Below, one piece after another: positions 21,284 through 24,399 of a stretch of DNA of 64,000 bases. Positions within the stretch are counted from its first letter, which is position 1, and each line of letters begins with the position of its first letter. The notes under the pieces are model-generated. The model ran no database searches and was not told the DNA's origin. It was given only the letters and a program-made list of their open reading frames with translations. Source of the DNA: Microbacterium gorillae (GTDB taxonomy: Bacteria > Actinomycetota > Actinomycetes > Actinomycetales > Microbacteriaceae); contig NZ_LN648875.1 of the NCBI RefSeq assembly GCF_000826185.2, positions 988,356 through 1,052,355 on the forward strand, written 5' to 3'. A program made the position numbers and the translations under genes.

Positions 21284-22264
21284 GTGATCAGCACGCGCAT
21301 CACCGAACTGCTGGGCATCGAGAAGCCGATCGTTCAGGGCGGCATGATGTACGTCGGCGTGGCCGAACTCGCCTCCGCCGTCTCCAACGCCGGGGGGCTC
21401 GGCATCCTCACGGCCCTCACGCAACCGACCCCCGAAGATCTGCGCCGTGAGATCCGTCGCACGCGCGAGCTCACCGACCGCCCCTTCGGCGTCAACCTGA
21501 CGATCCTGCCGACGATCACGCCAGTGCCCTACGGCGACTACGTCGACGTCATCCTCGACGAGGGGGTCCGGATCGTTGAGACGGCCGGCTCGAACCCGGA
21601 GCCGTACCTGCCGCGCTTCAAGGAGCACGACGTCGTCGTCATGCACAAGTGCACCGCGGTCCGCCACGCACTGAAGGCCGAACGGGTCGGTGTCGACGCG
21701 GTGAGCATCGACGGCTTCGAGTGCGCCGGGCATCCGGGCGAGGACGACGTCCCCGGGCTCGTGCTGATCCCGGCCGCGGCCGACAAGCTGACGATCCCGT
21801 TCATCGCGTCGGGCGGCTTCGCCGATGGCCGCGGACTCGCCGCCGCACTCGCCCTCGGCGCTGACGGCGTCAACATGGGCACGCGCTTCGTCGCGACCGC
21901 CGAGTCGCCGGTTCACCCGCTGGTCAAACAGGCCATCGTCGATGGGACGGAGCTCGACACCATCCTCGCCTTCCGTCCGCTGCGCAACACGGCACGGGTG
22001 CGCCGCAATGCCGTGTCCGTCGAAGCCGTCGACATCCTCGCGCGCGGCGGCGAGTTCGCCGACGTGCAGCACCTCGTCGCGGGCAGCCGGGGCAAGACCG
22101 TGTTCACGACCGGCGATATCGAGGCGGGCCAGTGGACGGTGGGCATGTCGCAGGCGCTCGTGCACGACGTGCCGACCTGCGCCGAGCTCCTCGAACGCAT
22201 CGTCACGGACGCCGAGGACATCTTCCGTCGCCGCCTGGCCGGGCTCGTCCTGGTGGCGCAGTAG
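21284..22264 (+). CDS. Nitronate monooxygenase-like FMN protein
   Basis: 326-residue TIM-barrel flavoprotein of the nitronate monooxygenase/2-nitropropane dioxygenase family. Visible signatures are VQGGMMYVG at the N-terminus, the active-site His in [10 protein letters not shown], and the phosphate-binding [10 protein letters not shown] and [11 protein letters not shown]. Many members in catabolic islands have uncertain reactions, including oxidation of enones or CoA esters, so nitronate need not be the substrate. The start is GTG at 21284 after AAGGGAG. It is the first gene of a four-gene operon with flavodoxin, reductase and HtaA domain. Confidence 0.83.
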
Positions 22265-22298
22265 AACAAGACCGACCTTCGGATTCAAAGGAGAACCG

Positions 22299-22763
22299 AT
22301 GAAGATCACGATCATGTACGGCACGGAGTCCGGCGAGAGCGAGCTCGCCGCGGAGGAGATCCGGGACGCATTGCTGGAGCTGCACGACGCGACGATCGTC
22401 AACATGGAGGACGTCGACGTCGACGCGATCGACGTGACCGACTTCCATCTCGTCGTGTGCTCCACCTACGGCGAGGGCGAGCTGCCGGCGAGCGCGCGGC
22501 CGTTCCACGCGGCTCTCTCCGCGAACCGCCCGGACCTCACCGGCCTGCGTTACGCCGTCCTGGGCCGGGGTGACCGCACGTACGCCGAGACGTACAGCCG
22601 CGGCAGCGAGCACGTCGACGAGCTGCTCCGCGAACTCGGCGCGACCAGGATCGGCGAGTACGGCCGCGAGGACGCCAGCGACTGGAACGCGCCGGACGAC
22701 CTCGCCGCGCAGTGGGCGCTCAGCACTGTTGCCGCCTTCGACGCCCTGGTGACGGCCGCATGA
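22299..22763 (+). CDS. Flavodoxin (MioC/cindoxin-like)
   Basis: 154-residue single-domain flavodoxin. The FMN phosphate loop is YGTESGESE and the second FMN loop is CSTYGEGELP, followed by GRGDRTYAE. ATG 22299 has AAAGGAG upstream. Its stop overlaps the start of the FAD reductase (ATGA), so the two are made together as a redox pair. A flavodoxin feeding a P450 is known from the cineole system (cindoxin), which makes the P450 at 7300-8508 a candidate acceptor (inference). Confidence 0.85.
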   Translation: MKITIMYGTESGESELAAEEIRDALLELHDATIVNMEDVDVDAIDVTDFHLVVCSTYGEGELPASARPFHAALSANRPDLTGLRYAVLGRGDRTYAETYSRGSEHVDELLRELGATRIGEYGREDASDWNAPDDLAAQWALSTVAAFDALVTAA

Positions 22764-23956
22764 CCATCGTGATCGCCGGCGGCGGCCTGAGCGCGCTGCG
22801 CAGCGCGGAGGACCTCCGCCGTCGCGGCTACGCCGACAGGATCGTCGTCATCGGCGCCGAGCAGGAACCGCCCTACAACCGTCCGCCACTGTCGAAGGAA
22901 CTGCTCTGGGGCGGCGCGACAGCGGCCGACCTCGCCTTCGGCGTCAGCGAGGGATCCGACGACATCGAGTGGCTGCTCGGCCGCAGCGTGGCCGCGGCCG
23001 ACCTCACCGCACGCAACGTCGTCCTCGACGACGGCGAGATGATCGGCTTCGACGGGCTCGTCGCCGCCACCGGCGTCACCTCCCGGCGTCTCGACATCCC
23101 CGGCCCCACGCGCGGTCGTATCGGACTGCGCACGCTCGCCGAGGCCGAGTCCGTCCGCGCCGCGCTCGTGCCGGGAGCCCGCATCGTGTGCCTGGGTGCC
23201 GGTTTCATCGGCTGCGAAGTGGCCCGAACCGCACGCGCGCTCGGCTGCGAGGTCGACGTCGTCGCACTCGACCCCGTGCCGCTGGCGATCCCGCTCGGGC
23301 CCGTCGCGGGTGCGGAGCTGCGGCGTCGGCACGAGGCTGCCGGAATCCGCTTCCACCTCGGGCGAACCGTCGCGGAGACGGTCGGCGACGAGTGCATCGA
23401 AGGCGTCGTGTTGAGCGATGGCACGCGGCTGCCCGCGGACCTGCTGCTCGAGACGGTCGGCTCCGTGCCGAATACGAGCTGGCTGCACGGCAACGGGGCG
23501 GACCTCCAGAACGGCGTACTCACCGACGAGTGGCTGCGCGTCGACGGCCGCCCGGGCATCGTGGCCGTCGGAGACGTGGCTCGCTTCGCCAACCCGCTCT
23601 TCGACGCTCCCGCGCTGCGGATCGAACACTGGCAGACGGCCATCGACACAGCGGCGTTCGCGACCGCGACCCTCATGCACGATCTCGGTCTGAGCACGGA
23701 CGCACCGGCACCGGTGAGCATCATGCCCTGGTTCTGGTCGGATCAGGGCGACCTGCGGCTGACGTCGTACGGCATGCTGGGCCTCGCCGACGAGACCGAG
23801 ATCGTCGAGGGCGAACTCGACGGCGAGTGCGCCATCGCCTACCGCCGCGACGGCGAAGTCGTCGGCTACCTGCTGATCGGGATGAAGCAGAAGGGCGCCC
23901 GCTACAAGCGTCAGCTCGGGAAGGAGCGTGCCGCGCTCCGCGCGGCCGCCGTCTGA
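22760..23956 (+). CDS. FAD-dependent ferredoxin/flavodoxin reductase
   Basis: 398-residue reductase of the putidaredoxin-reductase/BphA4 type. The FAD site is IAGGGLSALR with the conserved YNRPPLSKELL, the NAD(P) site is GAGFIGCEVAR, and the second FAD motif is VAVGDVARF. It would pass electrons from NADH to the flavodoxin encoded immediately upstream (4-bp overlap). The next gene, the HtaA-domain protein, starts within its stop codon (TGATG), so all are translationally coupled. Confidence 0.87.
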   Translation: MTIVIAGGGLSALRSAEDLRRRGYADRIVVIGAEQEPPYNRPPLSKELLWGGATAADLAFGVSEGSDDIEWLLGRSVAAADLTARNVVLDDGEMIGFDGLVAATGVTSRRLDIPGPTRGRIGLRTLAEAESVRAALVPGARIVCLGAGFIGCEVARTARALGCEVDVVALDPVPLAIPLGPVAGAELRRRHEAAGIRFHLGRTVAETVGDECIEGVVLSDGTRLPADLLLETVGSVPNTSWLHGNGADLQNGVLTDEWLRVDGRPGIVAVGDVARFANPLFDAPALRIEHWQTAIDTAAFATATLMHDLGLSTDAPAPVSIMPWFWSDQGDLRLTSYGMLGLADETEIVEGELDGECAIAYRRDGEVVGYLLIGMKQKGARYKRQLGKERAALRAAAV

Positions 23957-24399
23957 TGGGCGCGCCCGGCCTGTACTGGGCCCTGAAGTCGCGTTTCGTC
24001 GACTATGTCTCGCGGATGCCGGACGGCACGATCGATGCGTCGGGTGTCACGGCCGGGGCGGTGCGCGCATTCCACTTCGCGCCGGACGAAGGGACCGCGC
24101 ATCCGGACGTGCGGCGGTTCCGCGGCCATGTCCAGTTCGTGGGCCACGCGGGCTTTCTCCGCGTGCGACTCGAGGACCCCGCCCTGCGCCGCACGTCGGA
24201 TGACGGCGCGCTGCTGACGGTTCGAGACGCGATCGGCGGCGCACGGATCGACCTCGTTCAGCTCCGTCTCGTACCGGGTCCGGACGACGCGCTCACGCGT
24301 GGGGTCGACGTCCGGCTGCTGTCGACCGCCGTCGACCTGTTCGGCGGTTCTTACCCCGTCGACGAGCCTTTCGACGACCTCGTCATTCTGCGCTCCTGA
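23956..24399 (+). CDS. Leaderless single-domain HtaA-type (haem-binding) protein
   Basis: 147-residue protein that looks like one HtaA domain, known from corynebacterial cell-surface haem-uptake proteins. The pattern includes LYWALKSRFVDYV, FRGHVQFVGHAG and the C-terminal AVDLFGGSYPVDEPFDDLVI. The Tyr of FVDYV and His of FVGHAG occupy positions that I believe are haem ligands in HtaA/HtaB. There is no signal peptide and no membrane anchor, so it should be cytoplasmic, unlike the known family members. It is coupled (TGATG) to the FAD reductase. A role as a haem carrier or redox protein is inference. Confidence 0.72.
   Translation: MGAPGLYWALKSRFVDYVSRMPDGTIDASGVTAGAVRAFHFAPDEGTAHPDVRRFRGHVQFVGHAGFLRVRLEDPALRRTSDDGALLTVRDAIGGARIDLVQLRLVPGPDDALTRGVDVRLLSTAVDLFGGSYPVDEPFDDLVILRS

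Follow-up and report, generated by a model that had tools for sequence, protein, structure and literature searches.

Cytoplasmic, single-domain HtaA proteins are strongly linked to cytochromes P450 in several actinobacterial families. With some reserve, we favour the explanation that this branch of the HtaA family serves P450s, as Tyr-ligated haem proteins that load or stabilise them. One such protein is encoded in the window, i.e. the whole stretch of 64,000 nt of Microbacterium gorillae DNA that was analysed.

The gene lies at the end of a row of four on the forward strand. They encode a nitronate-monooxygenase/FabK-like (NMO-like) flavoprotein (21284-22264; PF03060, 194.3 bits), a flavodoxin of 154 amino acids (22299-22763; Flavodoxin_1, 90.5 bits), an FAD-dependent ferredoxin/flavodoxin reductase of the putidaredoxin-reductase type (22760-23956; Pyr_redox_2, 185.7 bits; Reductase_C, 33.7 bits) and the HtaA (CR) protein of 147 amino acids (23956-24399). 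Pfam names each of the four, and the coordinates and order in an earlier, sequence-only reading were right. That reading had placed overlaps at all junctions. Two are as described, an ATGA overlap between flavodoxin and reductase and a TGATG between reductase and HtaA (a one-base overlap with the HtaA start), but a gap of 34 bp separates the NMO-like gene from the flavodoxin gene, whose ATG is preceded by AAAGGAG. A promoter and terminator scan gave no signal above chance. From the gene overlap alone we infer only that the HtaA protein and the flavin chain may be made in equal amounts. In NCBIfam, the best matches of the reductase were dioxygenase-type ferredoxin reductases, all under their cut-offs. 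Membership of the NMO-like gene in the HtaA/flavodoxin/reductase system is uncertain; it was rejected as a core partner, as it did not recur among the neighbours of the examined loci.

The 147-residue protein contains a full HtaA (CR) domain (PF04213, 51.6 bits against a cut-off of 24). Its AlphaFold2 model (pLDDT 94.6) is predicted to form the CR beta-sandwich and matches 6jsa with Z 18.3 over 141 residues (rmsd 2.5), so that profile and predicted structure both bore out the assignment made from the letters. The best PDB matches of the model were HtaA-type haem domains, and its clear structural matches were HtaA-type and HbpA; a cytochrome b5/MAPR fold was absent among the structural matches listed. 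The fold match to CR domains of Corynebacterium HtaA, HtaB and ChtA extends over the whole length (PF04213; 6jsa, 6js9, 6jsb, 8smu, 9o0j and 9o0k; Z 16.2-18.4, rmsd 2.4-3.0, 138-142 residues).

According to the available text of PMC12494546, CR-domain haem is held by an axial Tyr, a helper His or Tyr and propionate-binding residues; the C. diphtheriae domains feature a propionate Ser, carry a pentacoordinate, Tyr-ligated ferric haem and bind hemin with affinities of 0.8-22 nM. In the window protein, Tyr17 (FVDYV motif; codon 24004-24006, forward strand) and His64 (FVGHAG motif; 24145-24147, forward) occupy the axial and helper positions of the HtaA haem site, as had been claimed, and Tyr133 (24352-24354, forward) that of the propionate Tyr. 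Unlike the Corynebacterium domains, it has an Arg (Arg13) at the position of the propionate Ser. In an alignment of 81 cytoplasmic HtaA proteins, both the axial and the propionate Tyr were kept in all 81 and the helper position was occupied by His (72), Tyr (8) or Phe (1), so the axial Tyr, helper His/Tyr and propionate Tyr are common to these proteins and the Corynebacterium domains. The Ser itself occurs in 75 of the 81 cytoplasmic rows and in 52 of the 66 exported ones, and for this reason we did not take it as family-defining. We predict that the window protein binds haem.

With the HtaA domain starting at about residue 5, a signal peptide would not fit ahead of it. The C-terminus carries no anchor either, in agreement with the sequence-only reading; the window protein thus lacks the signal peptide and anchor that mark the exported HtaA haem-uptake proteins. 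A hydrophobic C-terminal segment was found in none of 100 cytoplasmic HtaA frames and a hydrophobic segment before the domain in one (L077, in its longest frame); all 34 exported frames had a hydrophobic segment. In a quick tree, built without L117 (a row split by an insert) and without eight gappy domains of the 66 exported ones, the cytoplasmic proteins formed one clade split from the exported domains (SH-aLRT 99), with the cytoplasmic rows filling their own side of the branch, outside the exported clade. In one comparison, identity to the window protein was 22-39%. With the window protein alone as query, a search of contigs returned only four similar loci, all from Streptomyces, and profile searches were therefore adopted. 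An even sample of the phylum gave any HtaA match in 17 of 396 genomes, some of which were followed further; judged by frame length, no cytoplasmic HtaA was recognised outside the source genome, and the clade is therefore patchy. The source genome has two HtaA matches in all. Participation of the protein in haem uptake was rejected because both of these are cytoplasmic, and because P450s and reductases of the putidaredoxin-reductase type are absent from all 30 exported-HtaA neighbourhoods.

We counted P450s around 81 cytoplasmic HtaA loci, a non-exhaustive set chosen by eye among the matches listed, by score and short open frame, in which some genomes are related or contribute several loci. Each locus was chosen before its neighbourhood was viewed, but after P450s had been sighted in the first ones, and the first search profile (A1), built from ten proteins mostly beside P450s, may favour their relatives. 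A P450, as detected by a profile trained on P450s from cytoplasmic HtaA loci, lay within 9.4 kb of 51 of the 81 loci, where the P450 densities of the individual genomes would predict 1.85 (a background derived from PF00067 counts, which may undercount), and within 2.5 kb of 36 (0.61 expected). Distances were taken on the longest open frames because some scripted start codons were wrong (e.g. L092 and L170). None of the 30 exported HtaA loci had a P450 within 9.4 kb, in a control that is small, has P450s uncounted in most of its genomes and carries a chance expectation well under one. In another family, searched later and with a presumed family label, a P450 lay within 9.4 kb of 13 of 19 cytoplasmic HtaA loci (1.34 expected); these loci have E ≤ 1.4e-26 and frames ≤ 337 aa, weaker short-frame matches being left out, and include one with an internal stop (G1518) and two in which the P450 runs off the end of the sequence used (L169, L170).

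All 70 genomes with cytoplasmic HtaA had a P450, as did all 85 such genomes checked in total, compared with 27 of 45 in a hand-picked sample without HtaA matches. At 8 of the 15 HtaA loci in single-P450 genomes, the one detected P450 is ≤6 kb away, and clustering at 50% identity gave 48 clusters, of which 34 include a member with a P450 near. Without a P450 within 9.4 kb were 30 of the 81 loci (the window included) and 6 of the 19 in the later family, a few of them at contig ends; they include an HtaA branch in genomes of 1.2-1.8 Mb and a clade located behind a membrane-protein gene.

The HtaA gene directly precedes or follows a P450 or redox-partner gene at 19 of the 81 loci (open frames on the same strand, again the longest). 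Sets of P450, ferredoxin, reductase and HtaA recur in Microbacteriaceae, Rhodococcus and Streptomyces. On the R. erythropolis R138 plasmid, the genes for a P450, a 2Fe-2S protein, an FAD oxidoreductase and HtaA abut or overlap, and four Streptomyces loci outside the 81 (L032-L035) all have the P450-ferredoxin-reductase-HtaA set. HtaA also adjoins P450s fused to their own FprA-type reductase and flavodoxin, and one plasmid pairs it with a Rieske oxygenase and a VanB-type reductase. Many cytoplasmic HtaA loci resemble catabolic islands or are plasmids. The proposed check on synteny succeeded in part: related gene combinations occur in other genomes, but the exact set of NMO-like gene, flavodoxin, reductase and HtaA was not seen among the loci examined there. 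When 237 genomes of the genus were searched with the window flavodoxin, the best eight matches comprised five flavodoxin domains of P450/FprA/flavodoxin fusions, one split version of such a fusion, one separate gene beside FprA and one FprA-flavodoxin frame in which no P450 was seen; the ninth match was of another type.

The P450 mentioned in the sequence-only reading is real (7300-8508, reverse strand; PF00067, 99.6 bits) and the only one found in the window. It belongs to the same catabolic region and lies in another operon, 15.4 kb from HtaA; it is the likely client and electron acceptor of the window system. P450 systems with flavodoxin partners include XplA/XplB and P450cin/cindoxin, in neither of which an HtaA component is known to us. 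As in these systems, a flavodoxin and an FAD reductase are encoded together in a P450 context, but here the reductase belongs to the putidaredoxin-reductase type, and the P450 stands apart, on the other strand. The window set would thus only work like a three-component flavodoxin-type P450 system, and we do not class it as one.

In the proposed mechanism, HtaA would bind one ferric haem through Tyr17, with His64 as helper, and the haem propionate would be held by Tyr133 and perhaps by Arg13, which stands where Ser is usual. This haem could be passed to, or exchanged with, the client P450, and/or direct binding of HtaA could stabilise the enzyme. Electrons would reach the P450 at 7300-8508 from the window flavodoxin and FAD reductase, with HtaA as the haem-supply or stabilising part of the system. 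Both haem transfer and stabilisation are put forward here as putative functions; gene linkage by itself is no proof of haem transfer.

An electron carrier, a haem chaperone for the P450 and a new oxygenase component had been offered as options, of which the comparative evidence favours the chaperone. A catalytic oxygenase component was set aside because P450s accompany HtaA so often. As an electron carrier, the HtaA haem would cycle between Fe(III) and Fe(II) and, in the manner of cytochrome b5, relay electrons to the P450 from the flavodoxin or ferredoxin reductase. The repeated position of HtaA right behind ferredoxin reductases or ferredoxins, and its overlap with the reductase gene in the window, would suit such a relay, but we consider it unlikely because HtaA adjoins fusions in which the P450 has its own reductase and flavodoxin and should need no extra carrier; the P450-ferredoxin-reductase sets are likewise complete chains already. 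The position of HtaA beside the fusions is more in line with haem supply than with electron transfer. Moreover, a pentacoordinate, Tyr-ligated ferric haem, the state described for the C. diphtheriae domains, is of low potential and carries electrons poorly. Also unlikely, if slightly less so, is that HtaA gathers haem from damaged P450s, or strips haem, and thereby limits toxicity or recovers haem. The nanomolar hemin affinity of the C. diphtheriae domains would agree with this role, but scavenging alone leaves the preference for P450s over other haem proteins unexplained, and an unsystematic look over neighbourhoods noticed no haem oxygenase.

We give a smaller chance to a loss of haem binding, after which the domain would serve as a scaffold for P450s or carry hydrophobic substrates. 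The Ser-to-Arg change in the window protein and the broad sequence drift point in this direction, as does PGRMC1, which stabilises P450s independently of haem binding in the part of PMC8591507 available; against it stand the two invariant Tyr residues and the helper His/Tyr in 80 of 81 proteins. Least probable of all, in our view, is that HtaA is merely carried along in catabolic clusters that happen to include P450s. The many island-like or plasmid loci and the 30 loci without a near P450 are compatible with a passenger, but the overlapping P450-partner-HtaA genes, the proximity in single-P450 genomes and the spread of P450 linkage over 34 of 48 clusters argue against it.

Some observations run against the preferred P450-helper reading: the loci without a near P450 in both sets, the distance of the window P450, the Arg at the propionate-Ser position, the Rieske/VanB plasmid and the haem-independent stabilisation of P450s by PGRMC1. 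To our knowledge, most P450s need no such helper. That the exported HtaA protein DtHtaA of Dietzia removes haem from a cytochrome P450 in vitro counts in favour of the P450-helper reading, but the transfer reported in the available text runs from P450 to HtaA, opposite to haem loading; unlike cytoplasmic HtaA, DtHtaA works outside the cell on membrane vesicles, for haem/iron uptake (PMC8027190).

Cytoplasmic HtaA differs from the Corynebacterium CR proteins in its single domain, the lack of signal and anchor, its own clade and its P450 neighbours. The eukaryotic Dap1/PGRMC1 (MAPR) proteins are likewise small, Tyr-ligated and supportive of P450s, and in fission yeast such a protein needs its iron-coordinating Tyr (excerpts of PMC9449707). 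This likeness is one of analogy only and not of membership; Dap1/PGRMC1 are membrane-associated and their domain is related to cytochrome b5 (PMC5366339, in part). Our literature searches did not find a cytoplasmic HtaA-P450 partnership described. Tentatively, and with less confidence than in a P450-serving role as such, we suggest that cytoplasmic HtaA may be a dedicated haem chaperone or stabiliser for P450s in Actinobacteria, derived from the HtaA haem-capture domain, a convergent counterpart of Dap1/PGRMC1 and the first known for bacterial P450s.

Haem delivery to P450s is poorly understood. Soluble P450s are generally assumed to need no haem-insertion partner, and we know of no dedicated one for bacterial P450s. 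A small, soluble haem-domain partner would make the question of P450 haem supply testable with purified proteins, and it could have practical value because P450 expression in biotechnology is often limited by incomplete haem loading. The HtaA domain has so far been described from the bacterial exterior, as a haem catcher; a separate intracellular branch, often encoded beside P450 genes, suggests a haem helper and, if this is true, a haem-uptake domain would have been reused within the cell.

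A redox operon of four genes had been proposed by the sequence-only reading for positions 21284-24399, and its coordinates and gene identities were borne out: the + strand there encodes, in order, a nitronate-monooxygenase (NMO)/FabK-like flavoprotein, a flavodoxin, a putidaredoxin-reductase-type flavoprotein and a 147-residue HtaA protein. The proposed overlaps hold for flavodoxin, reductase and HtaA (ATGA, TGATG) but not for the NMO gene, which is separated from the flavodoxin gene by a 34-bp gap. The 147-residue protein scored 51.6 bits with the HtaA profile, whose cut-off is 24. 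Its AlphaFold2 model (38-row alignment) had a pLDDT of 94.6, and all 14 Foldseek matches with an E value of 0.001 or better were HtaA, HtaB or ChtA entries. With VIA-align, the model superposed on 6jsa over 141 residues (Z 18.3; 2.5 Å rmsd); the haemoglobin receptor HbpA came next after CR domains (Z 10-11) and other folds remained below Z 7. We regard the protein as a new kind of member of the HtaA/CR domain family.

According to PMC12494546, CR domains of Corynebacterium diphtheriae bind haem with an axial Tyr, a helper residue that is His or Tyr, and a Ser plus a Tyr on a propionate. We compared these positions in 81 cytoplasmic HtaA proteins (that of L117, in two pieces, entered once). The axial and the propionate Tyr were each present in 81/81, the helper residue was His in 72, Tyr in 8 and Phe in 1, and the propionate-Ser position was occupied by Ser in 75 proteins, by Thr in 4, by Ala in 1 and by Arg in the window protein alone. 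None of 100 cytoplasmic HtaA open frames had a hydrophobic C-terminal segment, and a single one had such a segment ahead of the domain when its longest frame was taken; all 34 exported HtaA frames carried a hydrophobic segment. At L157:8932-9485 (R. rhodochrous pGD02.2.2) the HtaA gene is annotated as two adjacent CDS, and the frame there is therefore broken or misread.

In a quick tree built from 80 cytoplasmic rows together with 58 exported domains, a branch with an SH-aLRT value of 99 set the cytoplasmic rows apart. Lying near to or far from a P450 changed 15 times on the best tree and at least 10 times by well-supported branches. The row closest to the window HtaA is L055; a P450 lies 3.4 kb upstream of it, and its HtaA is coupled to a reductase that has an end of the 2Fe-2S type.

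The linkage to P450s was counted at 81 loci, namely the window and 80 further cytoplasmic HtaA loci of its genus, its family and family f21 (that of genome G463), taken by score and short frame among the matches listed. A P450 lay within 9.4 kb at 51/81 loci (1.85 expected from each genome's own P450 count), within 2.5 kb at 36/81 (0.61 expected) and within 300 bp at 13/81. Clustering at 50% identity gave 48 clusters, 34 of them with a P450-near member. A P450 or a ferredoxin reductase of this type occurred at 0/30 exported HtaA loci of related genomes, where the chance expectation is also well below 1 (Fisher's exact test against 51/81: p 1e-10). All 70 genomes with a cytoplasmic HtaA contained a P450, compared with 27/45 genomes lacking HtaA matches; the 25 whose HtaA lies farther than 9.4 kb from any P450 still carry one (25/25; Fisher's exact test against 27/45: p 1e-4). 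Where a genome had a single detected P450 (15 loci), it was near HtaA in 8 and not near in 7. The family of genome G322 (f22; 341 genomes searched, all 19 strong short-frame matches fetched) gave a P450 within 9.4 kb at 13/19 loci (1.34 expected). That 15/15 f22 genomes have P450s says little, because each carries 7 to 48.

At 19/81 loci, counted on longest open frames, HtaA directly follows or precedes a P450, a ferredoxin, a ferredoxin reductase or a fusion of them on the same strand. The order P450-ferredoxin-reductase-HtaA occurs at L038, L069 and L088, and also at L035, which is not among the 81. P450 and HtaA, in this order, overlap by 4 bp at L089 and L115; at L099, FprA, flavodoxin, P450 and HtaA follow one another as four separate genes. 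Thirteen loci have nearby a fusion of P450, FprA-type reductase and flavodoxin, in the order FprA-flavodoxin-P450 (L037, L090), P450-FprA-flavodoxin (L042, L050, L051 and L053, the last in two frames) or an order that was not assigned (L070, L083, L084, L087, L095, L108, L117). These fusions, which we take to resemble XplB/XplA in one chain, are possibly an undescribed class of self-sufficient P450s.

Plasmid records retrieved by two tblastn searches showed a P450 inside the 9 kb displayed in 6/9 cases. R. erythropolis R138 has abutting or overlapping genes for a P450, a 2Fe-2S protein, an FAD oxidoreductase and HtaA, and pTC2 of P. aurescens TC1, like two relatives, carries a P450-ferredoxin-reductase set whose P450 lies about 4.4 kb from HtaA. 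The pTC2 protein is annotated as conserved hypothetical; glutamine-synthetase-like genes (ipuC on pTC2) also lie near HtaA on these Arthrobacter-type plasmids (L162, L164, L165). On Rhodococcus qingshengii pLP337 (L161), HtaA overlaps a VanB-type reductase gene with a Rieske oxygenase ahead, a coupling that counts against the P450 reading; 2.9 kb beyond HtaA comes a P450 accompanied by another VanB-type reductase. M. madagascariense, Microbacterium sp. YJN-G and one record cut at its end had no P450 in the 9 kb displayed.

Also against the P450 reading, no P450 was found within 9.4 kb at 30/81 loci and at 6/19 f22 loci. Six of these loci lie in BVMO-type clusters (L056, L062, L082, L085, L086, L121), with P450s about 9.7 to 18.5 kb off among the matches listed. 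An HtaA branch in reduced genomes of 1.2-1.8 Mb (L092, L101, L107, L112, L113, L116, L118) has no P450 near, and one to four P450s per genome; purine-synthesis or other housekeeping-type genes are neighbours at L092, L112 and L107. The sister rows of this branch (L096, L097, L102) stand beside P450s. An HtaA clade formed by L091, L104, L105 and L111 likewise has no P450 near, and at L091 and L104 HtaA comes immediately after a gene for a transporter-like membrane protein.

The only P450 found in the window (7300-8508, - strand, opposite to the operon; PF00067, 99.6 bits) is 15.4 kb away, in a catabolic region that also encodes acyl-CoA dehydrogenases, thiolases, acyl-CoA ligases and FMO/BVMO-type monooxygenases and has mycofactocin genes at its edge. 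The latter are mftD, which the window edge truncates, mftC and mftB at 1-2301 (- strand); a mycofactocin-type SDR lies beside the cluster at 3189-3932. Five of the eight best matches of the window flavodoxin elsewhere in the genus sample are domains of P450/FprA/flavodoxin fusions, and the other three are a split version, an FprA-flavodoxin frame with no P450 seen and a separate gene beside FprA; from the ninth on, most matches that were followed had other neighbours. The best matches tie the window flavodoxin to P450 chemistry despite an operon without a P450. The genome has two HtaA matches, both cytoplasmic; the second (L036:9198-9638) lies tail to tail with a PaaE-like 2Fe-2S reductase gene, 5.5 kb from a P450.

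An electron carrier, one of the options that the sequence-only reading had offered for HtaA, is unlikely beside the fusions, because these already contain the complete electron chain. We favour a part in the haem economy of P450s: the window protein would bind haem, and HtaA may give haem to a P450, swap haem with it or stabilise it. According to PMC8027190, an exported HtaA removed haem from a P450 in vitro; haem can thus be exchanged between the two protein types, although that transfer ran opposite to the direction proposed here. The nearest parallel in function is with Dap1/PGRMC1, haem proteins with a Tyr ligand that aid P450s, a likeness by analogy and not by descent. For such MAPR-type proteins, PMC9449707 reports that the Tyr is required in fission yeast, and PMC8591507 that haem binding by PGRMC1 is dispensable. 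We found no biochemical work on any member of the cytoplasmic clade in the literature and no description of cytoplasmic HtaA with P450s in the open-licence literature, which does not prove that none exists.

The finding exceeds the operon of M. gorillae: a clade of cytoplasmic HtaA proteins is linked to P450s and has a probable, though unproven, part in supplying them with haem or stabilising them.
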